Of a DNA stretch of 64,000 nucleotides, positions 6,362-28,382 are shown in pieces; position 1 is the first letter of the stretch; every line of letters begins with the position of its first letter. The stretch comes from Albimonas donghaensis (GTDB taxonomy: Bacteria; Pseudomonadota; Alphaproteobacteria; Rhodobacterales; Rhodobacteraceae): contig NZ_FNMZ01000008.1 in NCBI RefSeq assembly GCF_900106695.1, forward strand, positions 1 to 64,000, written 5' to 3'. A model generated the notes under the pieces. The model was given only the letters and a program-made list of their open reading frames with translations, was not told where the DNA came from and searched no databases. The translations under genes and the position numbers were made by a program.

Positions 6362-6635
6362 CGCGCCGGTCCCTCGCGTCCAGAACGCCGTCTAGCGGCG
6401 CCGCGGCGCAGACTGCCGCATCGCCGCGCGGGACGCGATGACCAAGGTCGGGCCGCGACGATTCAGGCGACCCGGCGGGCGTGGGCACGGGGTGGGGAAG
6501 CGGGCCTTCCGGTCGCCTTCGACCCTCAGCGCCGCGTCTCTCGCCCGGCCCGCCTTCGGGGCGGAGAGGCGTCAGGCCGCCTCGACGATGTCCTCCGGCG
6601 TTCCGAGGCGCCGGGCGCGCAGCCCCTCCGCCGCG

Positions 6636-8171: not shown

Positions 8172-8175
8172 CGGC

Positions 8176-9469: not shown

Positions 9470-10027
9470 ATGGCCGATCCCGAGCTCGCCGCCCTCGCCT
9501 TCCGCGCCGCGCCGCTGGCGATGATGGCGCTGGGGGACCGCCGCATCCTCGCCGCCAACGCCGCCGCCGCGCGGCTGTTCGGCTGGCCGGAGGCGGAGCT
9601 GACCGGGCGGTCGGTGCGCCTGCTCTACCCCTCCGCCGGCGACTTCCGCGCGACGGGGGAGCGCTGGCTGAGCGTCCTGCGCTCCCGCCCCGATCACGTC
9701 GACGAACGCTTCATGCAGGCCCGCGACGGAGAGGTGTTCTGGACCCGCGTGCGCGGCCGCACCCTGACGCCGGAGAACCCGTTCGAACGCTCGGTCTGGA
9801 CCTTCGAGCGGCTGGAGACCGGCGGCGCAGGCGGCGGCCCCTCGACCCTCACCGCGCGGGAGCGCGAGATCGCCGCCCATGTCGTCAACGGCCGCACCAG
9901 CAAGGAGATCGCCCGCGCGCTCGCCATCTCTCACCGCACGGTGGAGGTTCACCGGGCCGCCATCCTGCGCAAGCTGGACGCCAGGAACGCCGCCGAACTG
10001 GTGACGCGGATCGTCGTCGCCGGGTAG
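9470..10027 (+). CDS. PAS-LuxR two-domain transcription regulator
   Basis: This 185-residue protein has an N-terminal PAS fold (residues about 8-120, with ILAANAAAARLFGWPEAELTGR) and a C-terminal LuxR/GerE helix-turn-helix (about 125-185, LTAREREIAAHVVNGRTSKEIARALAISHRTVEVHR). It has no receiver domain and no membrane segment, so it is a one-component cytoplasmic regulator whose PAS domain may sense a small molecule or redox state. The ATG at 9470 has GGAG at good spacing. It is divergent from the thiolase-synthetase operon and precedes an enoyl-CoA hydratase, so it probably controls one or both. Nothing in the PAS sequence reveals a bound cofactor. Confidence 0.87.
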   Translation: MADPELAALAFRAAPLAMMALGDRRILAANAAAARLFGWPEAELTGRSVRLLYPSAGDFRATGERWLSVLRSRPDHVDERFMQARDGEVFWTRVRGRTLTPENPFERSVWTFERLETGGAGGGPSTLTAREREIAAHVVNGRTSKEIARALAISHRTVEVHRAAILRKLDARNAAELVTRIVVAG

Positions 10028-12757: not shown

Positions 12758-12787
12758 TTGACCGGAGGGCCGCTTGGGCTTAACAAT
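12758..12787 (+). promoter_or_regulatory. Promoter of the ACAD10/11-type dehydrogenase
   Basis: TTGACC (12758-12763), a 17-base spacer and TAACAA (12781-12786) make a good sigma-70 promoter. The palindrome at 12788-12803 begins right after the -10, covering the expected start of transcription, the classic place for a repressor. Confidence 0.65.
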
Positions 12788-12803
12788 CCTGACAACAGTC
12801 AGG
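12788..12803. promoter_or_regulatory. Operator 1 of the putative TetR regulon (CCTGAC-N4-GTCAGG)
   Basis: CCTGACAACAGTCAGG is a perfect 6+6 palindrome with a four-base centre. The inner 14 bases (12789-12802) match four other sites near 14.5, 20.1, 20.3 and 22.3 kb. It controls the dehydrogenase gene starting at 13024. Confidence 0.75.
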
Positions 12804-12850
12804 TCAAGCGCGGCGCACCCAACGACGCCGCGTGATCGGGAGGATTGGGA

Positions 12851-13027
12851 ATGTCGCTCGGGTTCGGCCTGCAAGGTCCGACCATCTCCGCCGCGCGCGC
12901 CGCCATGACGGCGCGCGCCGGCCGGCCGAGCCGCCGTTCCCCCTGCGCCTTCCGGTCCAAGCCGAATTCGACCTTCGCCGCCCCCACGCGGGCGCCCCGC
13001 CGTTCACCCTGGAAGGACCGCACATGA
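12851..13027 (+). CDS. Possible 58-codon leader frame upstream of the ACAD gene
   Basis: An ATG at 12851 has a very good GGGAGG site seven bases upstream, and the frame ends in TGA at 13025-13027, overlapping the dehydrogenase ATG as ATGA. The predicted peptide is rich in Arg, Ala, Ser and Pro and resembles no family I know, so it may be a leader that couples translation rather than a functional protein. Similar short frames precede the kinase and carboxylase genes. The composition is what unselected GC-rich DNA would give, which keeps confidence low. Confidence 0.3.
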   Translation: MSLGFGLQGPTISAARAAMTARAGRPSRRSPCAFRSKPNSTFAAPTRAPRRSPWKDRT

Positions 13028-14337
13028 CGATGTCGCCGCATGACGAAATGAACAACCTGACGATGTCCGAGAAGGCCAAGCCGCTTCTCGACGCCGTGGT
13101 CAAGCATATCCGTGACAATTGCGACCCGGCGCTGGAGGAATACGAGCGCCTGGGCGCCAACCGCGCCGAGCGCTGGGGTTATGGCGAAGGCCAGCTCGAG
13201 ATCCTCGAGGGTCTGAAGAACAAGGCCAAGGAAGCCGGCCTGTGGAACTTCTTCCTGCCCAACGCCGAAACCGGCGAGGGCCTGTCCAACCTCGACTACG
13301 CCTTCATCGCCGCCGAGCTGGGCAAGAACCCGCTGGCCTCGCAGTCGATGAACTGCTCCGCCCCCGACACCGGCAACATGGAAGTGCTGGAGCGGGTCGG
13401 CACCCCCGAGCAGAAAGAGCAGTGGCTCAAGCCCCTGCTGGCCGGCGAGATCCGCTCGGCCTTCGCGATGACCGAGCCCGACGTCGCCTCCTCGGACGCC
13501 CGCAATGTCGGCACCCGCGCGGTGCTGGAGAACGGCGAGTGGGTGATCAACGGCGAGAAGTATTACATCTCCGGCGCCGGCGACCCGCGCTGCAAGATCA
13601 TGATCACCATGGTCAAGACCTCGCCCGACGCCGAGCCGTTCCGCCAGCAGTCCCAGATCCTGGTGCCCATCGACACCCCCGGCGTCGAGATCGTCGGCCC
13701 GATGTGCGTGTTCGGCCATGACGACGCGCCCCACGGCCACATGCAGATCCGCTTCAAGGACGTCCGCGTGCCGGAGAGCAACATGCTCTGGGGCGAGGGC
13801 CGCGGCTTCGAGATCTCGCAGCTTCGCCTCGGCCCGGGCCGCATCCATCACTGCATGCGCTCGATCGGGGCCGCCGAGAAGGCGCTCGACCTGATGATCG
13901 CCCGCGGTCTGTCCCGCGAGGCCTTCGGCAAGAAGATCATCGACCTGGGCAAGAACATGGAGACCATCTCCCGTTCGCGCATCGAGATCGAGGCCTGCCG
14001 CCTGATGGTGCTCAAGGCCGCCAAGGCCATGGACGTGCTGGGCAACAAGGAGGCCCGCGTCTGGGTGTCGATGGTCAAGGCCATGGTGCCCGAGAAGGCG
14101 TGCAAGATCATCGACGACGCCATGCAGGTCCACGGCGCCACCGGCGTGTCGCAGTGGTCGCCGCTGTCGGGGATGTACACCAAGCAGCGCACCCTGCGCC
14201 TGGCCGACGGCCCGGACGAGGTGCATCACGCGGTGGTCGCGCGCGCCGAGGTCAAGGACTTCCGGAACTCCAACGACCGCCAGGCGGCGATGGCCGACGC
14301 CACCAACCGCGGCTCGCGGATGTTCGACGGGCCGTGA
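13024..14337 (+). CDS. Acyl-CoA dehydrogenase of the ACAD10/ACAD11 type
   Basis: A 437-residue flavoprotein of the acyl-CoA dehydrogenase family. Its sequence closely follows the dehydrogenase part of vertebrate ACAD11 as I recall it: NCSAPDTGNMEVLERVG (about 115-131), FAMTEPDVASSDARNVG (about 155), GRGFEISQLRLGPGRIHHC (about 260) and LRLADGPDEVHHAVV near residue 400. In ACAD10/11 and in P. putida LvaC, this type removes the phosphate from 4-phosphooxyacyl-CoA made by a partner kinase, giving an enoyl-CoA for beta-oxidation. A matching kinase lies at 20416 behind the same operator. The start at 13024 has GGAAGGA upstream and the domain begins there; the frame upstream is open but not ACAD-like. 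It is monocistronic, ended by a strong hairpin. Confidence 0.9.
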   Translation: MTMSPHDEMNNLTMSEKAKPLLDAVVKHIRDNCDPALEEYERLGANRAERWGYGEGQLEILEGLKNKAKEAGLWNFFLPNAETGEGLSNLDYAFIAAELGKNPLASQSMNCSAPDTGNMEVLERVGTPEQKEQWLKPLLAGEIRSAFAMTEPDVASSDARNVGTRAVLENGEWVINGEKYYISGAGDPRCKIMITMVKTSPDAEPFRQQSQILVPIDTPGVEIVGPMCVFGHDDAPHGHMQIRFKDVRVPESNMLWGEGRGFEISQLRLGPGRIHHCMRSIGAAEKALDLMIARGLSREAFGKKIIDLGKNMETISRSRIEIEACRLMVLKAAKAMDVLGNKEARVWVSMVKAMVPEKACKIIDDAMQVHGATGVSQWSPLSGMYTKQRTLRLADGPDEVHHAVVARAEVKDFRNSNDRQAAMADATNRGSRMFDGP

Positions 14338-14361
14338 TTTCGGCCTCCGGCGAATGAGACG

Positions 14362-14387
14362 ACGGGGCGCCCCACCGGGCGCCCCGT
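14362..14387 (+). terminator. Terminator of the ACAD gene
   Basis: A perfect ten-base stem ACGGGGCGCC (14362-14371) pairs with GGCGCCCCGT (14378-14387) around a six-base loop, 24 bp after the stop, followed by TCGCGTTT. Confidence 0.7.
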
Positions 14388-14482
14388 TCGCGTTTCGGGC
14401 CGCGTCGGCGGGCGCCGGCGGGCCTCGGCGCCGGGAGCGCGAAAAGCGCGACGTCCTACGCAACCCTTATTGTCCTTGCGTC

Positions 14483-14496
14483 CTGACAACCGTCAG
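14483..14496. promoter_or_regulatory. Operator 2 of the putative TetR regulon
   Basis: CTGACAACCGTCAG, the same palindrome as at 12789, lies 131 bp before the CoA transferase start. A TATTGT at 14468-14473 could be the -10, as its place relative to the operator matches the other sites, but no good -35 is seen. The rest of 14388-14627 holds only a 21-codon frame (14558-14623) ending four bases before the transferase ATG. Confidence 0.7.
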
Positions 14497-14627
14497 AGCA
14501 CCATGCCCCTGCGCGAAAAGCGCCCGCCGGACGCAAGCGACAGGCGACCGGAAAGGCATGCAACGACGAATGGGAGGGCCGGCGCCTTGCGGGAACGCCG
14601 CGGCGCGCGGGCCGGAAAGGTGACGAC

Positions 14628-16964
14628 ATGACGGACGCGACCGGACCGCTCGCGGGGTATCGCGCGACCGAGATCGCCGGCGGCGTCGGCGGCGCCTGGA
14701 CGGGACGGCTGCTGGCCGCGCTCGGCGCCGACGTGGCGCGGCTGGAGCCCGAAGGCGGCGACCCGCTGCGCCGACGGCGCGAGGACCCGGACGCCCCGGA
14801 AACCGAAGGCCTGCTCCACGCCTGGCTCTCGCAAGGCAAACGGTCGCTGGACGCGGCCGGGCTCGATGAGGCCGTCGCCGCTTCCGACCTGCTGATCCTG
14901 GGCGAGGACGCCCCCCGCGCGCCGATCAACGCCCGCCCGCGTCACGCCACGCTGGACCTGAGCTGGTTCGGCCCCCGCGGCCCCCGCGGGGCCTGGCGGG
15001 GCGCGGATCTCGCCGTCCAGGCGCTGACCGGCATGATCCACCCCTGCGGCCCGGAGGACGGCCCGCCCCTGCCGCTCGGCGACCTTCAGGCGGCGATGAT
15101 CGGCGGGGTGGCGGCCGCCACGGCGGGGCTCGCCGCGCTCTACGCCGGGCGGACGCACAGGCTTTGCGAGGTCTCGATCCTCGAATCCTGCCTGGTGCTC
15201 TCGGATCTTCAGATCAACGACGCCCAGTCGCTCGACCGCCCCTGCCCGCGCAACGGGGTCAACCGCTTCCACCCGACCTGCCCGGTCTCGATCCACCGCT
15301 GCAAGACCGGCTGGCTGGGCGTGACCTGCATCACCGCCGCGCAATGGGCGGGCCTGTGCGAGATGCTGGAACGCCCCGACCTGGCCACCGACCCGCGCAT
15401 GGCGACGATCCACACCCGGTCCGAGCATTCGGACGAGATCGAGGCCGCCATCGACGCCGTGCTTCCCGGCAGGTCCGCCGAGGACTGGGCCGCGCTGGGC
15501 CGCGAGCTGAAAGTCCCCTGCGTGGTGGTGCCCGACGCCGGCGGCCTGCTGAGCCATCCGGTCTTCGCCACGCGCGGCACGTTCGCCAGGATCGACGGGC
15601 GCGAGGACGCGACCGGCCCGGCCTCTCCCTTGCGGGTCGAGGCGCCGGGCGGGCCGGGAACGGGAACCCCGCCGCAGGGCGCCGCGGACCCTCTGGCGCC
15701 GCTCTCGGGCCTGCGGATCGCGGATTTCTCCATGGGCTGGGCGGGGCCGCTGGCCACGAGGATCCTCGCGGATCTCGGGGCCGAGGTCATCAAGATCGAG
15801 GCCGGACGCTATCCCGACTGGTGGCGCGGCACGCTGTGGGACGCGGACTCCATCGCCGCCGCGCAATACGAGACCTCGCGCCGCTTCTCCGCGGTGAACC
15901 GCAACAAGGCCAGCGTCTCCTTCGACCTGACGACGGAAGAGGGCAAGGCCCTGGCCCGGGCGCTGGTCGCGGCCTCCGACGCGGTGGTGGAGAACCACGC
16001 CGCCGGGGTCATGCCGCGGCTGGGCATGGGCTGGGAGCAGCTGAGCGCCGGGCGCGAGGATCTGGTGATGCTGTCGATGTCGGCCTTCGGGTCCGGCAAC
16101 CTGTGGTCCGACACGCGGGCCTATGGCTCGACCCTTGAACAGGGCTCGGGCCTGCCGAGCTTCCGCGGCGCGCCGGACGGGCCGCCGACCATGGGCCATA
16201 TCGCCTATGGCGACCCGGTCGGGGGCATTCACGGGGCGGCCTGCCTCCTGGCGGCGCTGATCCATCGCAAGCGCACGGGCCTGGGCCAGTGGATGAATGT
16301 CAGCCAGTGCGAATGCCTGCTGCCCTTCACCGCGCCGGCGGTGCTGTCGCGCTCGGTCACCGGGCGGGAGCCGCCGAGGCCCGGCATGCGTCATGCCGCG
16401 ATGGCGCCGCACGGGATCTATCCGGCCGCCGGCGAGGACGCCTGGATCGCCATCGCCGCGCCCGACGACGCCGCATGGCGGGCGCTGGCGAAGGCCATCG
16501 GGCGCCCGGACCTGGCCGAGGCGCATCCCGATTTCGCCGCGCGCCGCCGGGCAACGGCGGAGATCGACGCGGCGATTGCGGCGGCCTCCGCCGGGCGGGA
16601 GGCCGAGGCGATGGCCGTCGCCCTGCAAGCCGCCGGCGTGGTCGCGGCGCCGGTTCTGAAGCCCGAGCAGGTGATCGAGGACCCGCATCTCGACGCCTGC
16701 GGGACCTATGTGGACGTGCTCCGCGCCCATGTCGCGCCGCAGCGGCAGTTCGCGCTGTCCTGGACGGTGGACGGAGCGCGGACCCGGCTGCGCGGACCCG
16801 CGCCCCTGCTGGGGGCCGACACGCAGGATGTGCTGACCCGCGTGCTGGGCCGCGATCCGGGCGACTACGATGCGCTGACCGCCAGCGGCGTCATCAGCCT
16901 GCGTCCCACCGCCCTGCGCAGCGCCGCGCCGGCCAGGACCCCCGAGCCGGCCGCCGGAGGCTGA
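14628..16964 (+). CDS. Double-length class III (CaiB/BaiF) CoA transferase
   Basis: At 778 residues this is twice the usual class III CoA transferase. Two family copies can be seen. The first (about 8-345) starts LAGYRATEIAGGVGGAWTGRLLAALGADV. The second (about 360-765) starts LSGLRIADFSMGWAGPLATRILADLGAEVIKIE and has the usual NRNKASVSFDL segment. Class III enzymes move CoA between acyl groups using an Asp ester; the first half keeps an Asp at D127 in GADLAVQALTG, while the matching place in the second half reads RAYGSTLEQGSG, without Asp, as in some subfamilies. The fusion would mimic the natural interlocked dimer. The start has GGAAAGG at good spacing. It is expressed from operator 2 and ended by a shared hairpin. 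Confidence 0.88.
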   Translation: MTDATGPLAGYRATEIAGGVGGAWTGRLLAALGADVARLEPEGGDPLRRRREDPDAPETEGLLHAWLSQGKRSLDAAGLDEAVAASDLLILGEDAPRAPINARPRHATLDLSWFGPRGPRGAWRGADLAVQALTGMIHPCGPEDGPPLPLGDLQAAMIGGVAAATAGLAALYAGRTHRLCEVSILESCLVLSDLQINDAQSLDRPCPRNGVNRFHPTCPVSIHRCKTGWLGVTCITAAQWAGLCEMLERPDLATDPRMATIHTRSEHSDEIEAAIDAVLPGRSAEDWAALGRELKVPCVVVPDAGGLLSHPVFATRGTFARIDGREDATGPASPLRVEAPGGPGTGTPPQGAADPLAPLSGLRIADFSMGWAGPLATRILADLGAEVIKIEAGRYPDWWRGTLWDADSIAAAQYETSRRFSAVNRNKASVSFDLTTEEGKALARALVAASDAVVENHAAGVMPRLGMGWEQLSAGREDLVMLSMSAFGSGNLWSDTRAYGSTLEQGSGLPSFRGAPDGPPTMGHIAYGDPVGGIHGAACLLAALIHRKRTGLGQWMNVSQCECLLPFTAPAVLSRSVTGREPPRPGMRHAAMAPHGIYPAAGEDAWIAIAAPDDAAWRALAKAIGRPDLAEAHPDFAARRRATAEIDAAIAAASAGREAEAMAVALQAAGVVAAPVLKPEQVIEDPHLDACGTYVDVLRAHVAPQRQFALSWTVDGARTRLRGPAPLLGADTQDVLTRVLGRDPGDYDALTASGVISLRPTALRSAAPARTPEPAAGG

Positions 16965-16982
16965 GCCCCGCCCGAAACGCGA

Positions 16983-17015
16983 CCGCCCGCCGCCGGGAGC
17001 TCCGGCGGCGGGCGG
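16983..17015. terminator. Bidirectional terminator between convergent genes
   Basis: A perfect 14-base stem (16983-16996 with 17002-17015) and five-base loop GAGCT lies between the CoA transferase stop and the stop of the leftward SDR, so it can end both transcripts. Confidence 0.8.
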
Positions 17016-17037
17016 CGCGCAGGTCGGCGATGTCGGC

Positions 17038-17817
17038 TCAGCCGGCCCTGGCCAGCGGGTTGAATCGCCGGTTCAGCTTGCGCATCCCGCCCAGCCAGCG
17101 GTCGTAATCCGCGGTCTTGCGGCGCATGTATTCCAGCACCTCCGGATGCGGGAGCACGAGGAACGTCTCCGCCTCGATCGCCTTGAGGCAGGCCTCCGCC
17201 ACCGGCTCGGGCTCGATCAGACCGTTGACCGCGGCGACCCCGTCCTCCTTGCCCTTGATCATGTTGGTGTTCACCGCCTGCGGGCACAGGACCGAGACCT
17301 TGATCCCCTGATCCCCATAGGTCAGCGAGATCCATTCCGCGAAGGCCACCGCGGCATGTTTGGTCACGGCGTAGGGGGCCGAGCCGACCTGGCTCAGCAG
17401 ACCCGCCGCCGAGGCGGTGTTGAGGAAATAGCCCCCGCCCCGCGCGATCATCCGCGGCGCCAGGTGACGCGCGGCCCAAATATGGGCCATCACGTTGATC
17501 TCCCAGATCTTCTGCCAGGCGGCATCCTCCACTTCCGGGCCGCCGCGCATGGAGATGCCGGCATTGCAGCAATAGAGGTCGATGGGGCCGATCTCGGTCT
17601 CCACCTTCTCGATCAGGGCGCCGGTCGCGGCCTCGTCGGCCACGTCGAGCCGCAGGCCCACGCCCCCGACCTCGGCCGCGGTCTGCTTCGCGCCCAGCTC
17701 GTCGAGATCCACGCAGACGACGGTTTTCGCCCCCGCCTGCGCGAAACGCTGCGCCAGCGCCCGCCCGATGCCTCCGGCCGCGCCGGTGACCACGACGATC
17801 CTGTCTTTCACGTCCAT
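17038..17817 (-). CDS. Short-chain dehydrogenase/reductase
   Basis: A 259-residue classical SDR. The NAD(P) loop VVTGAAGGIGRALA is at residues 9-22, D of the adenine pocket in CVDLDELG suggests NAD, the CCNAGI motif is at about 90, and YAVTKHA with the catalytic Tyr and Lys is near 155. It probably oxidises a hydroxyl or reduces a keto group on an intermediate of this cluster. It is the last gene of a leftward set (3-hydroxyacyl-CoA dehydrogenase, SDR, SDR), 28 bp after the preceding SDR. The C-terminus extends past the usual SDR core with HPEVLEYMRRKTADYDRWLGG. Confidence 0.9.
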   Translation of the reverse strand: MDVKDRIVVVTGAAGGIGRALAQRFAQAGAKTVVCVDLDELGAKQTAAEVGGVGLRLDVADEAATGALIEKVETEIGPIDLYCCNAGISMRGGPEVEDAAWQKIWEINVMAHIWAARHLAPRMIARGGGYFLNTASAAGLLSQVGSAPYAVTKHAAVAFAEWISLTYGDQGIKVSVLCPQAVNTNMIKGKEDGVAAVNGLIEPEPVAEACLKAIEAETFLVLPHPEVLEYMRRKTADYDRWLGGMRKLNRRFNPLARAG

Positions 17818-17845
17818 GACGGTCTCCTCCCGTGTCGCGGGGCCT

Positions 17846-18625
17846 TCAGGCCCACATGTTGGTGCCGCCGCAGACGGTCAGCGCCTGCCCGGTCATGTAT
17901 TTGCTGGCGTCCGAGGCGAGGAACACCGCCACGCCGCCGAAATCGTCCGCCTGGCCCAGCCGGCGCAGGGGGATCTGGGAATTGGCGCGGGCCTCGGCCT
18001 CCGGGTTGTCCCACAGGGCCTTGGCGAAGTCGGTGCGGATCAGGCCCGGACAGATGGCGTTGGCGCGCACGCCCTGCGGCCCGAATTCATCCGCCAGGTT
18101 CCGCACCAGCCCGATCAGCGCCAGCTTGGAGATGCCGTAGAGCCCCAGCGTCGAGGACGGCTTGAACGCCCCCACGGAGGAGGTGAACATCATCGAGCCC
18201 CCCCCGCGCGCGATCATGTCGCCCACCACCAGCCGCGCCAGCCACAGGTTGGACTGCACGTTGGTGGCCATGGTCTTCTCATAGGCCACGTCGGGGATCT
18301 CGGAGATCTTGCCGTAGTGGATGTTCACCCCGGCGTTGCCGACCACGATGTCCACCGGGCCGGAAAGCTCCCGCGTCTTCGCGACCAGCGCCTCAAGCTC
18401 CGCGTGCCGGCCGGCGTTCGCGGCCACCGCATGAACCCGGTCGGCGCCGATATCGGCGTTGATCTCGGCCGCCGCGGCGTCGAGCTGGTCCTGCTTGCGC
18501 GAGCTGATCACCACCGTCGCGCCATGGGCGGCGAGCGCGTGCGCCATCGCCCGGCCCATGCCCTTGGAGGCGCCGGTCAGCAGCGCGGTCTTGCCGGTGA
18601 GATCGAAAAGGGTCGTGTCGACCAT
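17846..18625 (-). CDS. Short-chain dehydrogenase/reductase
   Basis: A classical 259-residue SDR with LLTGASKGMGRAMA at residues 14-27, GNAGVN near 93, YGISKLA with catalytic Tyr and Lys near 160, and a C-terminal ASKYMTGQALTVCGG, which is common in 3-oxoacyl-ACP reductase-like enzymes. SSRKQDQLD after beta-2 suggests NADP preference. The start at 18625 is chosen since GGGAGGA sits seven bases upstream; two earlier in-frame ATGs overlap that site. Second gene of the leftward operon behind the 3-hydroxyacyl-CoA dehydrogenase, from which it is separated by 120 bp with no obvious terminator or promoter. Confidence 0.9.
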   Translation of the reverse strand: MVDTTLFDLTGKTALLTGASKGMGRAMAHALAAHGATVVISSRKQDQLDAAAAEINADIGADRVHAVAANAGRHAELEALVAKTRELSGPVDIVVGNAGVNIHYGKISEIPDVAYEKTMATNVQSNLWLARLVVGDMIARGGGSMMFTSSVGAFKPSSTLGLYGISKLALIGLVRNLADEFGPQGVRANAICPGLIRTDFAKALWDNPEAEARANSQIPLRRLGQADDFGGVAVFLASDASKYMTGQALTVCGGTNMWA

Positions 18626-18746
18626 GAGCATTCCTCCCATATGGCCCGCGACCCGCCGCGTTTCGCGGTCGCTCCCCGTGCGGCGGGGAGGGGTCGTCGG
18701 GGAGCCGGGAGGGGACGGCGCGCCCCCTCCCCGTGTCTTCAGGCGA

Positions 18747-20045
<1,299 letters not shown>

Positions 20046-20127
20046 CGAACCTCTCCGAATGTCGCGTGGCCCGGGCGGGGCGCGGAGGTGGATCCTCCTT
20101 CGGCTCCCGTCGCGGGCTCCTCCCGTA

Positions 20128-20141
20128 CTGACAGTTGTCAG
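20128..20141. promoter_or_regulatory. Operator 3 of the putative TetR regulon
   Basis: CTGACAGTTGTCAG, perfect 5+5 palindrome with four-base centre, 82 bp before the hydroxyacyl-CoA dehydrogenase start. On the minus strand TTGACG (20152-20147) can be the -35, so the palindrome falls between -35 and -10. The -10 itself is poor. Confidence 0.7.
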
Positions 20142-20227
20142 CCCTACGTCAAGCACAGGTCACGGGCAAGACGCTTGCGCGGATCGGAGGCGAGCGGCGC
20201 GAGCGGCGAGGCCCCCGGCGCGAGCGA

Positions 20228-20256
20228 TTGACGCAACCGGCGGGCGTGGCTACCGT
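20228..20256 (+). promoter_or_regulatory. Promoter of the ACAD11-type kinase gene
   Basis: TTGACG (20228-20233), exactly 17 bases, then TACCGT (20251-20256). Operator 4 begins five bases after the -10. Confidence 0.6.
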
Positions 20257-20261
20257 CCGTC

Positions 20262-20275
20262 CTGACATTCGTCAG
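20262..20275. promoter_or_regulatory. Operator 4 of the putative TetR regulon
   Basis: CTGACATTCGTCAG, with a leading C as at operators 1, 2 and 5. The right half GTCAGCACGACG is repeated once more 15 bp downstream (20286-20297), giving a possible extra half site. Confidence 0.72.
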
Positions 20276-20371
20276 CACGACGAGCGTCAGCACGACGTCC
20301 GCAAGCCCGGCGCGCCTCAGACGCCGGCGGCGGGTCGCGGTCCGGTCCGGGCCGCAAGGGAGGAACGACCG

Positions 20372-20419
20372 ATGACCATGACCGCCGCGGCGCCGCGCCG
20401 CCGGGGAGGGGCCGCATGA
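20372..20419 (+). CDS. Possible 15-codon leader frame before the kinase gene
   Basis: The ATG at 20372 is preceded by GGGAGGAACGACCG, a strong ribosome site, and the frame (MTMTAAAPRRRGGAA) ends in TGA at 20417-20419, overlapping the kinase ATG as ATGA. The kinase has its own GGGGAGGGG just upstream, inside this frame. Ribosomes ending the leader could start the kinase directly. No function for the peptide itself is suggested. Confidence 0.35.
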   Translation: MTMTAAAPRRRGGAA

Positions 20420-21510
20420 GCGGTTCGCCCTACGCCATCACCGACACGCCCGTGGTGATCGAGCCGCTGCCCGTCCACCGCTTCGACGAGGCCGCGCTGC
20501 AGGCCTGGCTGGACCCGCGCCTGCCGGACGGCGCCGCGGGGCTGGAGGTGCGCCAGTTCCAGGGCGGGATGTCGAACCCCACCTTCCTGCTGACCCTGCC
20601 GGACGGGACGCGCTATGTGCTGCGCAAGAAACCCCCCGGAAAGCTGCTGCCCCGCGCCCATGCGGTGGACCGCGAATACCGGGTGATGGACGCCCTGCGC
20701 GACACGCCGGTCCCGGCGCCGCGCATGGTCGCCTATTGCGACGATCCGGACGTGATCGGCGCCGAGTTCTACGTCATGGCGCATCTTGCGGGCCGCATCA
20801 TCCCGCCCCCCGCCATGGACCCGGTGGCCCGCGCCGACCGCCCGGCGCTGGCCCACGCGCTGATCGACACGCTGGCCGACCTGCATGGGGTGGATCAGAC
20901 GGCCGTGGGGCTGGCGGATTTCGGCCGGCCCGAAGGCTATCTCGGCCGCCAGACCGCCCGCTGGGCCACGCAATACGAAGGCGCCAAGTCCGCCCTGCCC
21001 GCGGATTTCGACTACGCCCGCTTCGACTGGCTGCGCGACTGGCTGATGGAGCGCGCGCCCGCCGCGGCGGACGAGACCTCGATCGTCCACGGCGATTTCC
21101 GGCTGGGCAACATGGTGGTCCACCCGACCGAGCCGCGGATCATCGGCGTGCTGGACTGGGAGCTGGCGACGCTGGGCCATCCGCTGGCCGACCTCGCCTA
21201 TCTGTGCCTGCCCTGGCGCACGCCGAAGGACCTGCCCGGCGGGGCCGACATGGCGGCGGCGGGCCTGCCCTCGGAGGCGGAGATGGTGGCCCGCTACTGC
21301 GCGCGGTCCGGCCGCGCGGGCATTCCGGAATGGCCGCTGTTCCTCGCCTTCGCCTGCTTCCGCTCGGCCGCGATCATCCAGGGCGTGGCGGCGCGGGCGG
21401 CGATGGGCAACGTGTCCTCGGCCTCGGCCGACCCGGTGGCGTTCGGCTATCGCGCGCGGCGCATCGCCGAATGCGGCGCCGCGATCGCGCAGGAATTCGA
21501 CGCCGGCTAA
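20416..21510 (+). CDS. Phosphotransferase of the ACAD10/11 kinase type (APH fold)
   Basis: A 364-residue aminoglycoside-phosphotransferase-fold kinase. Nucleotide-binding features are FQGGMSNPTFLLTLPDGTRYVLRKKPPGKLL (split here by family as the Gly-rich loop and the Lys of VLRKKP near residue 73), the catalytic loop IVHGDFRLGNMV near 225 and the metal site VLDWELATLGHPLADLAY near 247. These forms match the N-terminal kinase domain of ACAD11 and LvaA rather than antibiotic-resistance enzymes. The family phosphorylates the 4-hydroxyl of 4-hydroxyacyl-CoA. The dehydrogenase that would use the product is at 13024, under the same kind of operator. Convergent with tetR and separated by a strong hairpin. 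Confidence 0.88.
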   Translation: MSGSPYAITDTPVVIEPLPVHRFDEAALQAWLDPRLPDGAAGLEVRQFQGGMSNPTFLLTLPDGTRYVLRKKPPGKLLPRAHAVDREYRVMDALRDTPVPAPRMVAYCDDPDVIGAEFYVMAHLAGRIIPPPAMDPVARADRPALAHALIDTLADLHGVDQTAVGLADFGRPEGYLGRQTARWATQYEGAKSALPADFDYARFDWLRDWLMERAPAAADETSIVHGDFRLGNMVVHPTEPRIIGVLDWELATLGHPLADLAYLCLPWRTPKDLPGGADMAAAGLPSEAEMVARYCARSGRAGIPEWPLFLAFACFRSAAIIQGVAARAAMGNVSSASADPVAFGYRARRIAECGAAIAQEFDAG

Positions 21511-21520
21511 GAACCCGGGA

Positions 21521-21554
21521 GACGGCGCGCGCCGGGGCGGGGGCGCGCGCCGTC
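21521..21554. terminator. Bidirectional terminator between kinase and tetR
   Basis: A perfect 13-base stem GACGGCGCGCGCC (21521-21533) with its complement at 21542-21554 and an eight-base G-rich loop lies 10 bp after the kinase stop and 3 bp from the tetR stop. Confidence 0.8.
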
Positions 21555-21556
21555 CG

Positions 21557-22240
21557 TCAGCCGTCCTCGCCCGCGCTTTCGGCCAGCCGGGCCACCATCG
21601 CGGCGACGCCCGCGGCGACGACGTCGAGCATCACCTCGTCCTCCACGTCGCGGGTCAGCCAGTCCCGCATCGGGCCGAAGGCGGTCATGAAGATGATCAT
21701 GTTGGCCATGACCTCGGTGCGCGGATCGCGCTCGGGCAGGCCCACGCGCTCCGCCAGCTCCCCCGACAGGTCCGCGAGCAGCGCCTTGTCGCGCACCCGC
21801 ATGGCGCGGCGGTCCTCCTCCAACATGTGGGGGACCGAGCGGTAGACCAGCAGCGTGCCCTTGCGCTTCTTCTCCCACGCCTCGCGCAGGTAGCGGCGCA
21901 GCACCTCCTCGAACCCGGCCTCGGGCGCGGCGCGCAGCATCTCGGGCAGGGTCGGCACGTCGGGGTTGAACCACAGCTGGTTCAGCAGCCGGCGCAGGAT
22001 ATCGTTCTTGTTGGCGATGTAGTCGTAGATGCTGGCCTGGTTGACCCCGGACTTCGCGCAGATGTCGCGAATCGTGGTCGAGGCGAAGCCCTTCTCAAGG
22101 AACAGCTCCAGCGCCGCCTGGCAGATCTGCTCCCGCCGTCGGTGGATGAGGGATTCGTTCTGCACGACCGTCAGCTCGGCTTCCGACAGCGTCGCCGCCG
22201 CCGGATCGGGTGTCTCGCCGTCGCCCTGTCCCCTGGCCAA
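21557..22240 (-). CDS. TetR-family repressor, candidate regulator of the acyl-CoA regulon
   Basis: A 227-residue TetR-type protein. The HTH is at residues about 36-80 (ICQAALELFLEKGFASTTIRDICAKSG followed by VNQASIYDYIANKND), and the remaining helices form the ligand domain. The start codon is TTG (22240-22238) with GGGGAG at proper spacing; no ATG is available before the HTH, and a 30-residue lead precedes it. TetR repressors bind short palindromes as dimers and leave DNA when an acyl-CoA or similar ligand binds. The perfect palindrome at 22342 lies between this gene and the divergent carboxylase, and four copies stand before neighbouring acyl-CoA genes, making it the likely regulator of all of them and of itself. 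Overall situation resembles AtuR, PsrA and LiuR/Q-type control. Confidence 0.88.
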   Translation of the reverse strand: MARGQGDGETPDPAAATLSEAELTVVQNESLIHRRREQICQAALELFLEKGFASTTIRDICAKSGVNQASIYDYIANKNDILRRLLNQLWFNPDVPTLPEMLRAAPEAGFEEVLRRYLREAWEKKRKGTLLVYRSVPHMLEEDRRAMRVRDKALLADLSGELAERVGLPERDPRTEVMANMIIFMTAFGPMRDWLTRDVEDEVMLDVVAAGVAAMVARLAESAGEDG

Positions 22241-22302
22241 TGATCCGCTCCCCTTGTCTGCATCGCCGCGCCCGGCATGACGCCCGACACGCCCGCGGCC
22301 GG

Positions 22303-22331
22303 TTGACCGATCCGCGAGCCGCCCCTACGGT
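22303..22331 (+). promoter_or_regulatory. Promoter of the acyl-CoA carboxylase gene
   Basis: TTGACC (22303-22308), 17 bases, TACGGT (22326-22331). Operator 5 starts ten bases after the -10, over the expected initial transcribed region. Confidence 0.62.
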
Positions 22332-22341
22332 ATCCCAAATC

Positions 22342-22355
22342 CTGACGAATGTCAG
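22342..22355. promoter_or_regulatory. Operator 5 of the putative TetR regulon
   Basis: CTGACGAATGTCAG with leading AATC as at operator 1. It lies 102 bp before the tetR start on the minus strand and 130 bp before the carboxylase start, so one dimer site can control both. Confidence 0.75.
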
Positions 22356-22488: not shown

Positions 22489-25400
22489 GCGACGCCGCGC
22501 AGATGGCCGCGGGAACCGGCCCCGCCTTCGCCCCGCCCCGCCGCCTGCTGATCGCCAATCGCGGCGAGATCGCGCTGCGCATCGCGCGCACGGCGCTCGA
22601 TCTGGGCGTCACGCCCATCGCCATCGGGCCGCAGGATGACGCGGAAAGCCTGCACATGCTCCGCGCTCCGACGCGCGAAACCCTGCCCGGCCGCGGCGCG
22701 CGGGCCTATCTGGACGTGGCGGAGGTGGTCGAGGCCGCCCGCCGCGCCGGCGCCGACGCGGTGCATCCCGGCTACGGCTTCCTGTCGGAGAACGCCGAGT
22801 TCGCCGCCGCCGTCGAAGCCGCCGGCATGACCTTCGTCGGCCCCACCCCCGCCGCGCTGGCGCTGCTGGGCGACAAGCTCGCCGCCCGCAGGCGCGCCGC
22901 GGAACTGGGCGTGCCGATCCTCGCCGGCGGCGATCTCGCCAATGCGGGAAGCGCCAGCCTCGACGAGGCCCGCGCCTTCTTCGCCGCCCTCCCCCCCGGC
23001 GCCGCCATGCTGGTCAAGGCCGTCGCCGGCGGCGGCGGGCGCGGCATGCGCGTGGTCCGCGCCGAGACGGAGGTCGAGGACGCCTGGACCCGCTGCCGCT
23101 CCGAGGCCGAGGCCGCTTTCGGGCGCGCCGACGTCTATGTGGAGCGGTTCCTGCCCGCAGCCCGGCATCTCGAAGTCCAGGTGCTCGGCGACGGCACCGG
23201 CGCCTGCATCCATTACGGCGAGCGGGAATGCACGCTTCAGCGCCGTCACCAGAAGGTGGTGGAGATCGCGCCCTCCCCCTCGATCACCGAGGACCAGCGC
23301 GCCCGCCTCTGCGCCCATGCGCTGAGGCTGGCGCGTTCGGCCGACTATCGCAGCCTGGGCACGTTCGAATTCCTGGTGGCGGCGGAGCCGACCGAAGGCG
23401 AGGACGTCTTCTTCATCGAGGCCAACCCCCGCATCCAGGTCGAGCACACGGTGACGGAGGAGATCCACGGCGACGACCTCGTGGCCCGCCAGCTCCGCAT
23501 CGCCGGCGGCGAGACGCTCGCCGGCATGGGCCTCGCCGACGGCCCCCGCGCGCCGGAGGGCTGCGCCGTGCAGCTTCGCGTGAACATGGAGCGGATGGAC
23601 GAGACCGCGCAGGCCCTGCCCGCCGGTGGCCGGGTCGCGGTCTATGAGCCGCCTTCGGGCGCCGGGGTGCGGGTGGACGGCTTCGCCTATGCCGGCTACC
23701 GGACCTCGCCGCACTATGACAGCCTGCTCGCCAAGGTGATCGTCCATGCGCGCGCCGGCGGCTGGACCGCGGCGCTGGCCCGCGCCGAACGGGCCTTGTC
23801 CGAATTCCGGATCGAGGGGGTGGACACCAACCTGCCCTGGCTGCGCGCCCTGCTCGCCCGGCCGGAGGTCGCCGCGGCCTCCGTCACCACCACCTTCATC
23901 GAGGCCGAGGCCAGGGCGTTGTTCGACGCCGCCGCCGCCTTCGCCCCCGCCGCCCTGCCCGGCGCCGAGATCGGCGGGCCCCAGGCCGCCGCCGCCGCCG
24001 CGGCCATCCCCGAGGGCGCGGTCCCCGTGCCCGCGCCGATGCAGGCGACTGTGGTCACGCTGTCGGTCTCGCCCGGCGATGTCGTGGCCGCGGGTCAGCA
24101 GCTCGCCATCCTCGAAGCGATGAAGATGGAGCATGTCGTCTCCGCCCCCGTCGGCGGGGTGGTGCGCGCCATCTTCGGCGCGCCCGGCCAGACCCTGATG
24201 GACGCCGAGCCCCTGCTGGCCATCGAGCCCGATCCCGGCGCCGCCGCCGGCGCCGCCGCGGAGGCCGAGATCGACCTCGACCGCATCCGCCCCGACCTGG
24301 CCGAAGTCACCGCCCGCCGGGCCTTCGGACAGGACGAAAACCGCCCCGAGGCCGTCGCCAAGCGCCATGGCCGCGGCCATCGCACGGCGCGGGAGAACCT
24401 CGCCTCGGTCTGCGATCCGGGCACGTTCCGGGAGTTCGGCGAATTCGCCATCGCCGCCCAGCGCCAGCGCCGCTCGGAAGAGGATCTGATCGCGAACACC
24501 ACCGGCGACGGGATGCTGACCGGCATCGGCCATGTGAACGGCGCGCAGTTCGGCCCGGAGCTGACGCGCTGCGCCTTCGCGGTGGGCGACTACATGGTGC
24601 TGGCCGGCACCCAGGGCCAGCGCCACCACCGCCGGCTGGACCGCATCTGCTCCACCGCCAAGGAGTGGAACCTGCCGCTGGTGTTCTTCGCCGAAGGCGG
24701 CGGCGGGCGCCCCGGCGACACCGAGCGCGCCACCTATGCCGGCATCTCCAACGGCACCTTCTCCAAGTTCGCGGAACTGTCGGGACAGGTGCCGGTGGTG
24801 GGCATCGTCTCGGGCCGCTGCTTCGCGGGCAACGCCGCCCTGCTGGGCTGCTGCGACGTGATCATCGCGGACGAGTCCTCCAATATCGGCATGGCCGGCC
24901 CCGCCATGATCGAGGGCGGGGGCCTGGGCATCTACAAACCAGAGGAGATCGGGCCGATCGACGACCAGTGCGCCAACGGCGTCGTCGACATCCGCGTGAA
25001 GGACGAGGAAGAGGCCTGCGAGGTCGCGAAGAAATACCTCTCCTATTTCCAGGGCCCGATCACGGACTGGACCGCCCCCGATCCGCGCCGCGCCCGCCAC
25101 GTCATCCCCGAGAACCGCCTGCGGGTCTATTCCCCGCAGGACGTGGTGGAGTCGATCGCCGACGAGGGCTCGGTGCTGGAGCTGCGCCGCGAATTCGGCA
25201 TCGGCATCGTCACCGCCTTCATCCGGATCGAGGGCAAGCCCTTCGGGATCATGGCCAACAATCCCCGCCATATCGGCGGCGCCATCGACGGGCCGGCGGC
25301 GGACAAGGCCAGCCGCTTCATGCAGCTCTGCGACGCCTTCGACATCCCGCTGATCTCGCTGTGCGACACGCCCGGCTTCATGGTCGGGCCGGAGGCGGAG

Positions 25401-25841
25401 CGGACCGGACTGGTGCGCCATGTCTGCCGGATGTTCGTCACGGCGCGGTCCATCTCGGTGCCCCTCTTCGCCGTGGTGCTGCGCAAGTGTTACGGGCTCG
25501 GCGCGCAGGGCATGGTCGGGGGCGGGACCTACGACAACTTCTTCACCGTCTCCTGGCCCACCGGCGAATTCGGCCCCATGGGGCTGGAGGGCGCGGTGAC
25601 GCTGGGCTATCGGCGCGAACTGGACGCGGTCGAGGACCCGGTGGAGAAGAAGGCGCTCTATGACCGGCTGCTCGACGAATATTACCAGCAGGGCAAGGCC
25701 ATCCGCGTCGCCTCGACGCTGGAGATCGACGCGGTGATCGACCCGGCGGAGACTCGGGCCTGGGTGCTTTCGGGCCTCGGCTCGGTCCGCCTGCGCCCGC
25801 CGCTCTCCGGACGCAAGCGGCCCTTCGTGGACACCTGGTAA
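22485..25841 (+). CDS. Single-chain acyl-CoA carboxylase (BC-BCCP-CT)
   Basis: At 1118 residues this protein carries all parts of a biotin-dependent acyl-CoA carboxylase. Biotin carboxylase: residues about 18-465, with LLIANRGEIALRIART, HPGYGFLSENAEFA and the ATP loop AVAGGGGRGMRVV. Biotin carrier: about 510-585, with biotinylated Lys547 in LEAMKMEHV. Carboxyltransferase: about 605-1105, with GRPGDTERATYAG, the N-half AGNAALLGCCD and C-half LCDTPGFMVGPEAE. Two-subunit enzymes split this into alpha and beta chains; the fused form matches the long-chain acyl-CoA carboxylase family known from mycobacteria and some proteobacteria. It adds CO2 to the acyl-CoA alpha (or vinylogous gamma) carbon. 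Operator 5 and a leader frame precede it, SMP-30 and SDR genes follow. Confidence 0.93.
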   Translation: MSDAAQMAAGTGPAFAPPRRLLIANRGEIALRIARTALDLGVTPIAIGPQDDAESLHMLRAPTRETLPGRGARAYLDVAEVVEAARRAGADAVHPGYGFLSENAEFAAAVEAAGMTFVGPTPAALALLGDKLAARRRAAELGVPILAGGDLANAGSASLDEARAFFAALPPGAAMLVKAVAGGGGRGMRVVRAETEVEDAWTRCRSEAEAAFGRADVYVERFLPAARHLEVQVLGDGTGACIHYGERECTLQRRHQKVVEIAPSPSITEDQRARLCAHALRLARSADYRSLGTFEFLVAAEPTEGEDVFFIEANPRIQVEHTVTEEIHGDDLVARQLRIAGGETLAGMGLADGPRAPEGCAVQLRVNMERMDETAQALPAGGRVAVYEPPSGAGVRVDGFAYAGYRTSPHYDSLLAKVIVHARAGGWTAALARAERALSEFRIEGVDTNLPWLRALLARPEVAAASVTTTFIEAEARALFDAAAAFAPAALPGAEIGGPQAAAAAAAIPEGAVPVPAPMQATVVTLSVSPGDVVAAGQQLAILEAMKMEHVVSAPVGGVVRAIFGAPGQTLMDAEPLLAIEPDPGAAAGAAAEAEIDLDRIRPDLAEVTARRAFGQDENRPEAVAKRHGRGHRTARENLASVCDPGTFREFGEFAIAAQRQRRSEEDLIANTTGDGMLTGIGHVNGAQFGPELTRCAFAVGDYMVLAGTQGQRHHRRLDRICSTAKEWNLPLVFFAEGGGGRPGDTERATYAGISNGTFSKFAELSGQVPVVGIVSGRCFAGNAALLGCCDVIIADESSNIGMAGPAMIEGGGLGIYKPEEIGPIDDQCANGVVDIRVKDEEEACEVAKKYLSYFQGPITDWTAPDPRRARHVIPENRLRVYSPQDVVESIADEGSVLELRREFGIGIVTAFIRIEGKPFGIMANNPRHIGGAIDGPAADKASRFMQLCDAFDIPLISLCDTPGFMVGPEAERTGLVRHVCRMFVTARSISVPLFAVVLRKCYGLGAQGMVGGGTYDNFFTVSWPTGEFGPMGLEGAVTLGYRRELDAVEDPVEKKALYDRLLDEYYQQGKAIRVASTLEIDAVIDPAETRAWVLSGLGSVRLRPPLSGRKRPFVDTW

Positions 25842-25871: not shown

Positions 25872-26795
25872 ATGAACTTCGAGATCGTGACCGAGGGGCT
25901 GGAGTTCCCCGAGGGGCCGGTGGCCATGGATGACGGCTCGGTCGTGCTGGTGGAGATCCGGCGCGGCGCCCTCACCCGGGTGCGCCCGGACGGGAGCAAG
26001 GAGATCGTGGCGGAGCTGGGCGGAGGGCCGAACGGCGCCGCCATCGGTCCGGACGGCCGGGTCTATGTCTGCAACAACGGCGGCTTCGTGTGGGCCGAGC
26101 GCGGGGGGATCAAGGTCCCCGCCGGCACGCCGGACGACTACGCCTCCGGCTCCATCCAGGCGGTGGACCTGGCGACCGGGGCGGTGGAGACGCTCTACAC
26201 CGAATGCGACGGCATCCCCCTGCGCGGGCCCAACGACATCGTCTTCGATGCGCAGGGCGGCATGTGGTTCACCGATCTCGGCAAGACCATGGCCGAGACC
26301 ATGCACCACGGCGCGGTCTACCACGCCAAGGCCGACGGCTCCGCCATCAGCCGCCAGCGCTTCCCGCTGATCACCGCCAATGGCTGCGGGCTGTCGCCGG
26401 ACGGCAAGGTCCTGCATGTGGCGGAGACCCGGACCTCCCGCGTGTGGTCCTTCGACATCACCTCCCCCGGCGTGCTGGCCCCGCCCGAGGGCTTCCGGCC
26501 GGGCCGCCTGCTGGCGACGCTGCCGGATTACCAGCTGCTCGACAGTCTCGCGGTCCAGGCGGACGGGGCGGTCTGCGTCGCCACCCTGATGCGCGGCGGG
26601 ATCAGCATCGTCGACGCGGACACGGGCGAGGTCGAGTTCATCCCGGTCCCGTTCGACCCCCACGACCCCTACATCACCAACATCTGCTTCGGCGGCGCGG
26701 ACATGCGGGATGCGTGGATCACCTGTTCGGCCTCGGGGCGGCTGGTGAAGACCCGCTGGGCGAAGCCGGGGCTGAGGCTGAACTTCAACGCCTGA
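25872..26795 (+). CDS. SMP-30/gluconolactonase family lactone hydrolase
   Basis: A 307-residue six-bladed beta-propeller of the SMP-30/gluconolactonase/LRE family. Likely metal ligands can be seen: Glu in GLEFPEGPVAMDDG (near residue 15), Asn in LRGPNDIVFDAQGGMWFTD (near 120) and Asp in LLDSLAVQADGAVC (near 222). The family opens lactones; gamma-lactones are the cyclic forms of 4-hydroxy acids, so a lactonase fits a 4-hydroxyacyl pathway very well, though this is inference. The start at 25872 has AGGAAGAGGG upstream; GTG at 25866 is an alternative. It follows the carboxylase stop by 30 bp and is almost surely in the same operon. No signal peptide, so it acts in the cytoplasm. Confidence 0.88.
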   Translation: MNFEIVTEGLEFPEGPVAMDDGSVVLVEIRRGALTRVRPDGSKEIVAELGGGPNGAAIGPDGRVYVCNNGGFVWAERGGIKVPAGTPDDYASGSIQAVDLATGAVETLYTECDGIPLRGPNDIVFDAQGGMWFTDLGKTMAETMHHGAVYHAKADGSAISRQRFPLITANGCGLSPDGKVLHVAETRTSRVWSFDITSPGVLAPPEGFRPGRLLATLPDYQLLDSLAVQADGAVCVATLMRGGISIVDADTGEVEFIPVPFDPHDPYITNICFGGADMRDAWITCSASGRLVKTRWAKPGLRLNFNA

Positions 26796-26868: not shown

Positions 26869-27651
26869 ATGGGCGACAGGCTTGCGGGGCGCAGGGCGCT
26901 GATCACCGGCGGCAGCCGCGGCATCGGACTGGCCATCGCCGAGGCCTATGCGGCCGAGGGCGCGGACGTGGTCCTCGCCGCCACCAATCCCGCGAAACTG
27001 GAGGAAGCCCGCGCCGCCGTCGCCCCCCATGGCGGTCGGGTCGAGGCGATGGTCTGCGACGTGACCGACCGCGCCGCCTGTTTCGCGCTGGTCGCGAAAG
27101 CCGAGACCGCGCTGGGCGGGCTCGACATCCTGGTGAACAGCGCGGGCGTGCATATCCCCAGCGGGTTCCTCGACCAGACGCCCGAAGACTTCTCCCGCAC
27201 CTTCACGGTCAACGTGGACGGCCCCTTCCACCTGATGCAGGCGGCGCTGCCCGGCATGATCGCGGCGGGCTACGGCAAGATCGTCAACATCGCCTCGACC
27301 GCGGGCAAATGGGCCTCGGCCAATCAGGCGGCCTACAACGCCTCCAAGCACGCGGTGGTGGGGCTGACCCGCTGCCTGGCGGTGGAGATGGGCCCGAAGG
27401 GCGTGCGGGTGAACGCCATCTGCCCCGGCATCGTGACCACCGACATGGGCGACGCCTTCCTGCCCGCCCATGCCAAAGCCGCCGGAACCACGCCCGAGGC
27501 GATCCGCGACGCCGCGCTGAAGCGCGCCGCGCTGGGCCGCTTCATGGGGGCCGACGACGTGGCGCCGCTCGCGGTCTATCTGGCGGCGGCGGAGTCCGAC
27601 GGGATGACCGGCCAGTCCATCGCGCTCGACGGGGGCATGGTCTTCGTCTGA
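26869..27651 (+). CDS. Short-chain dehydrogenase/reductase (3-hydroxybutyrate dehydrogenase-like)
   Basis: A 260-residue classical SDR: LITGGSRGIGLAIA at residues 11-24, VCDVTDR near 62, NSAGVH near 91, AAYNASKHAVVGLTRCLAVE with the catalytic Tyr and Lys near 158. VNAICPGIVTTDMGD and the C-terminal SDGMTGQSIALDGG are typical. Resemblance to 3-hydroxybutyrate dehydrogenases is noted because P. putida LvaD, from the same enzyme group, reduces 4-ketovaleryl-CoA to the 4-hydroxy form in the levulinate route; this gene or a sister SDR could do a similar step here. A strong AGGAGG precedes the ATG at 26869. Third gene after operator 5. Confidence 0.88.
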   Translation: MGDRLAGRRALITGGSRGIGLAIAEAYAAEGADVVLAATNPAKLEEARAAVAPHGGRVEAMVCDVTDRAACFALVAKAETALGGLDILVNSAGVHIPSGFLDQTPEDFSRTFTVNVDGPFHLMQAALPGMIAAGYGKIVNIASTAGKWASANQAAYNASKHAVVGLTRCLAVEMGPKGVRVNAICPGIVTTDMGDAFLPAHAKAAGTTPEAIRDAALKRAALGRFMGADDVAPLAVYLAAAESDGMTGQSIALDGGMVFV

Positions 27652-28368: not shown

Positions 28369-28382
28369 GGGAGGAGCCCGCC

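Follow-up and report, generated by a model that had tools for sequence, protein, structure and literature searches.

A predicted TetR repressor and its probable, recurrent palindromic operator at ACAD10/11-type acyl-CoA genes of Albimonas donghaensis

Introduction

The 64-kb stretch of the Albimonas donghaensis genome considered here (hereafter the window) carries a gene for a TetR-family regulator amid genes of acyl-CoA metabolism, several of which are preceded by copies of the palindrome CTGAC-N4-GTCAG. This raises the question of whether the palindrome is the operator of that regulator and, if so, which pathway would be under its control. A sequence-only reading of the window had suggested that the TetR protein controls five transcripts of acyl-CoA degradation. 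As judged from the sequence comparisons described below, the TetR protein probably represses via palindromes placed over promoters, whereby the regulon is catabolic and most likely serves a 4-hydroxy- or 4-keto-acid (gamma-lactone) pathway.

Operator palindromes in the window

Exactly five CTGAC-N4-GTCAG palindromes were identified in the 64 kb as compared to 0.02 expected, with none of 100 dinucleotide shuffles reaching five, and neither a sixth copy nor a further copy with one mismatch was found within the window. Exact copies are termed strict sites or operators in the following, while a refined motif, learned from the relatives, additionally takes the central four bases to read purine..pyrimidine (R..Y). 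The latter fits four of the five copies, the misfit being the one at 12789 with the centre AACA. One end of contig C10 of the draft assembly (30 contigs) forms the start of the window, so that operator 1 lies 12.8 kb from the contig end. The five operators are:

12789..12802, operator 1 (CTGACAACAGTCAG), before the acyl-CoA dehydrogenase (ACAD) gene; centre not fitting R..Y; counterparts before ACAD orthologues in 6 loci
14483..14496, operator 2 (CTGACAACCGTCAG), before the fused double CaiB CoA-transferase gene; weak promoter; sites before orthologues of the double CaiB gene in L053, L054 and L060
20128..20141, operator 3 (CTGACAGTTGTCAG), before the 3-hydroxyacyl-CoA dehydrogenase (3HCDH) operon; -10 box weak
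20262..20275, operator 4 (CTGACATTCGTCAG), before the kinase gene; 134 bp from operator 3
22342..22355, operator 5 (CTGACGAATGTCAG), in the divergent tetR/carboxylase region; same divergent layout in L017, L018, L025, L034, L044 and L054

What the sequence-only reading had described was recovered in full at this level: the five start positions are as it gave them, all five copies lie outside called genes, four share a leading C (12788, 14482, 20261 and 22341; base 20127 is an A) and no other intergenic region of the window holds a copy. Gene calls and a Pfam scan, from which the window genes were named, likewise bore out that the downstream genes (ACAD, double CaiB, 3HCDH operon, kinase and carboxylase/tetR) belong to acyl-CoA metabolism and that tetR (21557-22240) lies among the palindromes, with the site at 22342 in its own divergent region.

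Recurrence of the operator beside TetR relatives

Relatives of the TetR protein were collected by a pattern-and-tblastn scan of one genome per species (84,980 species), which yielded 62 loci that are not independent, several coming from one genus. The loci belong to roseobacters and other Alphaproteobacteria, Alcanivorax, Alloalcanivorax, Marinobacter, Pseudomonas/Halopseudomonas and Ectothiorhodospiraceae, to metagenome-assembled genomes of a Burkholderiaceae and a Nitrospinaceae member and, as one remote match, to Bifidobacterium; beside TetR relatives, the palindrome recurs in records of Alpha-, Beta- and Gammaproteobacteria. It was found in 48 of the 62 loci, with 92 copies as compared to 0.6 expected, and CTGAC at a spacer of four was the commonest half-site (49 of 63 sequences, the next best reaching 30). 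Of the 97 sites in loci and window together, 79 fall entirely between genes in DNA that is 8.9% non-coding, and for 96 a gene begins no more than 400 bp away. At the central four bases, which lay outside the search pattern, 88 of 92 distinct contexts conform to R..Y; at the outer position, C accounts for 59%. In 25 genomes chosen from those of the 62 loci, 95 matches to the R..Y pattern were counted versus 13 for its reversed control (sums by eye).

Counting gene starts up to 400 bp from a site on either side, window included, the putative targets are AMP-ligase-like (26), tetR (20), kinase (19), enoyl-CoA hydratase-like (13), ACAD (10), carboxylase (7), 3HCDH (6) and double CaiB (4) genes. 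A further 16 starts belong to proteins of 397 or 398 residues, the one scanned being a TRAP-TAXI binding protein, and the sites in L104 and L117 precede DctP-type TRAP operons. Comparison with relatives, as had been proposed, revealed counterparts before orthologous genes for all five window sites: outside the window, orthologues stand behind sites for ACAD (6 loci), double CaiB (3), 3HCDH (3), kinase (9), carboxylase (6) and tetR (17). Sites often occur in pairs 97-171 bp apart (22 pairs, window and loci), mostly in divergent regions, e.g. between the kinase and the ACAD or 3HCDH operons. They are also found away from the loci examined first, namely before these genes on the tetR contig in L114 and L115 (G023) and L122 (G016), and before ACAD on a contig different from that of tetR in L116 (genome G007). 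The site of L119 has a TRAP-TAXI operon on one side and thiamine genes on the other, which renders its target ambiguous. At L035:15738 and L036:15737 the operator is located between an acyl-CoA ligase gene and that of an 857-residue protein (MutS in L035), where it probably serves the ligase.

Co-occurrence of operator and TetR

Within a sample of 199 genomes of the family, the TetR protein is encoded in five, and in a second, overlapping draw over the order in 6 of 292 genomes. The five TetR-positive family genomes hold 7, 6, 1, 3 and 7 strict sites, as compared to a mean of 1.16 and a maximum of 5 in the 194 genomes lacking it (Mann-Whitney p 0.001). An ACAD at least 76% identical to that of the window is present in 15 of the 199 genomes, 11 of which are without the TetR protein. 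All 11 keep the ACAD gene together with two short-chain dehydrogenase (SDR) genes, six of them also the 3HCDH and enoyl-CoA hydratase genes. A strict operator was found in none of these 11 genomes, neither around ACAD (12-18 kb searched each) nor around the best kinase homologue (7-15 kb searched each); hence the operator goes with the TetR protein and not with the genes. The proposed control of the five window transcripts by TetR is thus supported at the sequence level. In the TetR-less loci L166 and L168, the ACAD genes are accompanied by genes for a beta-lactamase-fold esterase, an acyl-CoA thioesterase and an AMP ligase.

The extent of the regulon was, however, underestimated by the count of five. 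The whole genome holds 16 copies of CTGAC-N4-GTCAG versus 2 of the reversed control, five of them in a 9.6-kb part of the window. The genome scan that the sequence-only reading had called for thus added 11 copies, of which three fit the refined motif (7 of 16 overall, 4 being in the window), and some of the 11 are intragenic or precede unrelated genes; the outcomes which that reading had named as refuting were mostly not observed. One of the three lies inside a flavin oxidoreductase gene (L001) and another, lacking a clear -10 box, before a glutathione-transferase-like gene (C10:108493); neither was counted as a target. The third, on the 11.5-kb contig C25 (L161), precedes an oligopeptide-type ABC transporter, a second double CaiB transferase (38% identity) and a second carboxylase (53%), and its promoter consists of TTGACA, 18 bases and a -10 box TAGTCT running into the operator. 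As this site was selected by its motif alone, its promoter overlap and CaiB-carboxylase operon support a regulon beyond the interval first read, to which TRAP, TRAP-TAXI and ABC transporters and AMP ligases are added in relatives.

Position of the operator over promoters

For the promoter comparison, 95 distinct sites were oriented to the nearer gene. TTGAC is found at -42 to -20 in 57 of the 95 as compared to a mean of 1.3 (largest 6) in 500 shuffles, and TTGAC-N17-19-TAnnnT precedes or overlaps the operator in 43 as compared to 0.17 (largest 2). Among well-scoring promoters, the -10 box starts either at -4 (27 sites) or at -12 to -9 (32 sites) relative to the operator. The clear predicted promoters of the window belong to operators 1, 4 and 5:

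12758..12786, plus strand, TTGACC-17-TAACAA, directly before operator 1; score 7.9
20228..20256, plus strand, TTGACG-17-TACCGT, for the kinase gene; score 8.1
22303..22331, plus strand, TTGACC-17-TACGGT, for the carboxylase operon; read by eye, as scoring took the tetR direction only

A protein bound over the -10 box or start would be expected to block polymerase or the start itself, which makes this a repressor position.

The TetR protein

Pfam PF00440 (TetR_N, helix-turn-helix) matches the protein with 48.2 bits. Its AlphaFold model (mean predicted local distance difference test, pLDDT, 86.9) is all-helical and best matched by TetR structures with template modelling (TM) scores of about 0.45-0.7, PhlH being the top match and Thermus FadR, DesT and Bacillus FadR being also among the matches. 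This search indicated no specific ligand class, acyl-CoA-binding TetR proteins being found only among many others. An identity as FadR, PsrA or AcuR was rejected, as the NCBIfam equivalog cut-offs were missed (PsrA 31.6 of 300, FadR 26.8 of 200 and AcuR 23.3 of 247 bits). Residues 67-74 of the recognition helix (NQASIYDY; N67-Y74) are invariant in all 32 aligned TetR sequences; outside this alignment, the TetR of L060 and a second TetR of the A. donghaensis genome have L in place of I71. The second TetR (L159:7638-8369; C12:137697-138323) shares 51% identity and a nearly identical recognition helix with the first, and adjoins another TetR gene and a cluster of acyl-CoA ligase, dehydrogenase and hydratase genes; no strict operator was found in 16 kb around it.

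Functions encoded by the proposed regulon

The genes concerned are:

13024..14337, plus strand, ACAD10/11-type acyl-CoA dehydrogenase, LvaC-like; 408 bits to mouse ACAD11 (8v3u) over 400 residues
14628..16964, plus strand, fused double class III (CaiB) CoA-transferase
17038..17817, minus strand, SDR_b, short-chain dehydrogenase, last gene of the 3HCDH operon
17846..18625, minus strand, SDR_a, short-chain dehydrogenase
18747..20045, minus strand, 3HCDH, heading the minus-strand operon
20416..21510, plus strand, APH-fold kinase of the ACAD10/11 kinase-domain type, LvaA-like; 298 bits to 3dxp and 262 bits to the ACAD11 kinase domain
21557..22240, minus strand, TetR-family repressor, predicted owner of the operator
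22503..25841, plus strand, single-chain acyl-CoA carboxylase of the long-chain acyl-CoA carboxylase (LCC) type; alternative start 22485; 1057 bits to 4rcn over query residues 14-1093
25872..26795, plus strand, SMP-30 beta-propeller lactonase, located 30 bp downstream of the carboxylase gene; 320 bits to 7ris/8djf
26869..27651, plus strand, SDR, possibly in the same operon as carboxylase and lactonase

PMC12440821 names R626, H634, R637 and D753 as catalytic residues of mouse ACAD11 and D220 as that of its kinase. Counted along the alignments, all of these are conserved in the window ACAD and kinase, the D753 column having been fixed by the D-to-N mutant chain 8v3v. In Pseudomonas, the same two steps (kinase and ACAD) are carried out by LvaA and LvaC, while the SDR LvaD makes 4-hydroxyacyl-CoA (PMC6692424 and PMC11342911). 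Of the genomes tested, all 24 with an ACAD match (E up to 1e-130, including a group of 50-58% identity) encode a kinase homologue versus 2 of 10 without, and in 9 of the 11 TetR-less genomes such a homologue (44-48%) lies about 12-16 kb from ACAD. The ACAD11 residues in ACAD and kinase, and the lactonase following the carboxylase, are the grounds on which the pathway was read as 4-hydroxy- or 4-keto-acid (gamma-lactone) catabolism; a pathway for 4-hydroxy acids and gamma-lactones is also consistent with the lactonase and with the TRAP-type transporters seen in relatives. The acyl-CoA degradation suggested earlier thus holds as regards the genes and is narrowed to this probable route. A search for literature on the lactonase structures 7ris/8djf returned nothing relevant.

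Two gene groups of the surroundings were recorded in addition. The minus strand at 4979-9348, free of the palindrome, encodes consecutively a protein with a phosphate acetyl/butyryltransferase domain and a long N-terminal part, an acyl-CoA ligase and a thiolase, and 27919-30659, downstream of the carboxylase-lactonase-SDR genes, encodes a 2Fe-2S protein and a molybdopterin oxidoreductase, which may or may not be regulon members.

Discussion

The mechanism suggested here assumes that the TetR protein binds CCTGACRNNYGTCAGG-type palindromes covering, at several promoters, the -10 box or the start site, and that it would thereby shut off the catabolic regulon and often itself too. Upon derepression, the SMP-30 lactonase would open lactones and the CaiB transferase would add CoA, a role that the AMP ligase may take in many relatives. 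The SDRs are expected to interconvert keto and hydroxy groups, the kinase to phosphorylate the 4-hydroxyacyl-CoA and the ACAD10/11-type enzyme to remove the phosphate, which would yield a 2-enoyl- or 3-hydroxyacyl-CoA; finally, 3HCDH would feed the product into beta-oxidation. A CoA thioester of the pathway probably releases the repressor.

Several observations weigh against this proposal. No strict site is present in 14 of the 62 loci, many of which are of the Sulfitobacter/Roseobacter type with a different neighbourhood; three of the 14 have CTGACAAATGTCCG before tetR. Only 17 of 60 tetR relatives (21 with one mismatch allowed) have a strict site in the 450 bp upstream, hence autoregulation is not universal. 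Sites lie inside a called frame in 12 of 97 cases, promoters are weak at operators 2 and 3, and among the 11 genome copies outside the window are the intragenic and unrelated ones mentioned. Three or more copies occur in 26 of the 194 TetR-less genomes. Counterparts of the window sites are found in relatives, yet in G214, which has the TetR protein, the ACAD operon is preceded by no strict site, although a copy with one mismatch is nearby, and G117 (TetR of 55% identity) has a single site, outside the tetR neighbourhood. The second TetR of A. donghaensis could share the operator. As to the pathway, a 4-hydroxy acid route offers no evident step for the carboxylase, and the window ACAD with its close group (at least 76%) stands apart from the 50-58% group, which adjoins a kinase in several loci, so that the substrate of the window ACAD may differ from that of LvaC. 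In the Sulfitobacter/Roseobacter relatives (L028, L037, L038, L045, L059 and L069), tetR is located between the gene of a 494-residue protein and transporter-like genes with at most one operator in the locus, and the target set seems shifted.

The best surviving alternative retains the TetR regulon and replaces its substrate by another acid (branched, aromatic or terpenoid), with the ACAD10/11-type pair handling one unusual hydroxylated intermediate and the carboxylase acting as in geranyl- or methylcrotonyl-CoA carboxylation. It would give a place to the single-chain acyl-CoA carboxylase, a paralogue of which also stands behind an operator, and it agrees with the varied ligases and transporters among relatives. 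The kinase-ACAD pairing with all named catalytic residues and the adjacent lactonase favour a 4-hydroxy acid, and the other-acid reading is rather unlikely. Far less probable is a different regulator, e.g. a CRP/FNR-type protein, as owner of the palindrome. TTGAC-N4-GTCAA is given as the HcpR consensus in PMC1274295 and shares the inner TGAC-N4-GTCA, but that sequence occurs 0 times in the same 63 sequences and the overlap with the -10 box or start is a repressor position. An FNR-type owner was rejected given the co-occurrence with TetR and the missing operators at the ACAD and kinase genes of TetR-less genomes. That the palindromes arose by chance or are terminator or attenuator stems in GC-rich spacers, as the intragenic copy in L001 and the mean of 1.16 copies in TetR-less genomes might suggest, is contradicted by their enrichment in window (5 versus 0.02) and relatives (92 versus 0.6), the half-site preference (49 of 63 versus 30), the placement, the unselected central bases and the promoter overlap, and has a negligible probability.

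A literature search, which covered open-licence papers with regulon databases outside its scope, found no paper on the present TetR or its motif. A TetR repressor with a palindromic operator is of an ordinary kind, and what appears new is the content of the regulon. Tentatively, and with more doubt than confidence, an undescribed catabolic regulon might be assumed that occurs in patches across the proteobacteria, the repressor being accompanied by its operator, and that has perhaps spread through horizontal transfer. It would combine uptake (TRAP, TRAP-TAXI or ABC), the opening of lactones, the transfer of CoA, phosphorylation and elimination of the ACAD10/11 type and a single-chain acyl-CoA carboxylase in a new route by which hydroxylated or lactone acids are degraded. 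As copies of the operator also precede genes in other parts of the genome, the transporters, lactonase, CoA-transferase and carboxylase are probably connected with the pathway. Use of the repressor as a sensor would be conceivable for a hydroxy or keto acid, or for the corresponding CoA ester, should such a compound prove to be its ligand.

Comparison with known systems

Acyl-CoA-responsive TetR regulators such as Thermus FadR, DesT and Bacillus FadR share with the present protein the TetR fold and control of acyl-CoA metabolism, whereas the structural match is only modest and their operators differ from the present palindrome. The carboxylase, with biotin carboxylase, biotin carrier and carboxyltransferase domains in one chain, matches LCC (PDB 4rcn) over nearly its full length; unlike LCC it sits in a predicted TetR regulon, and its role in the pathway is putative.

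With the lva operon of Pseudomonas putida, as described in PMC6692424, the regulon has in common a kinase, an ACAD10/11-type dehydrogenase and SDRs under one control (LvaA kinase, LvaC ACAD, LvaD SDR), and CoA activation by a ligase, there LvaE, is also found in many of the present relatives. It differs in that the lva operon has the sigma-54 regulator LvaR, whereas here a TetR protein and a palindromic operator are found, and in the added CaiB transferase, 3HCDH, single-chain carboxylase and SMP-30 lactonase. No LvaR-type sigma-54 regulator is among the called, Pfam-scanned genes of window positions 4979-30659, the only other regulator there being of the PAS-LuxR type (9470-10027). Mammalian ACAD10 and ACAD11 (PMC12440821 and PMC11342911) possess kinase and ACAD parts that are homologous to the present enzymes and agree with them in the named catalytic residues, while in the window the two are separate proteins with a shared operator and a predicted activity. 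An operator, a repressor and a target list are hereby proposed for a chemistry that was recently recognised in mammals with ACAD10/11 and is known in bacteria from the lva operon.

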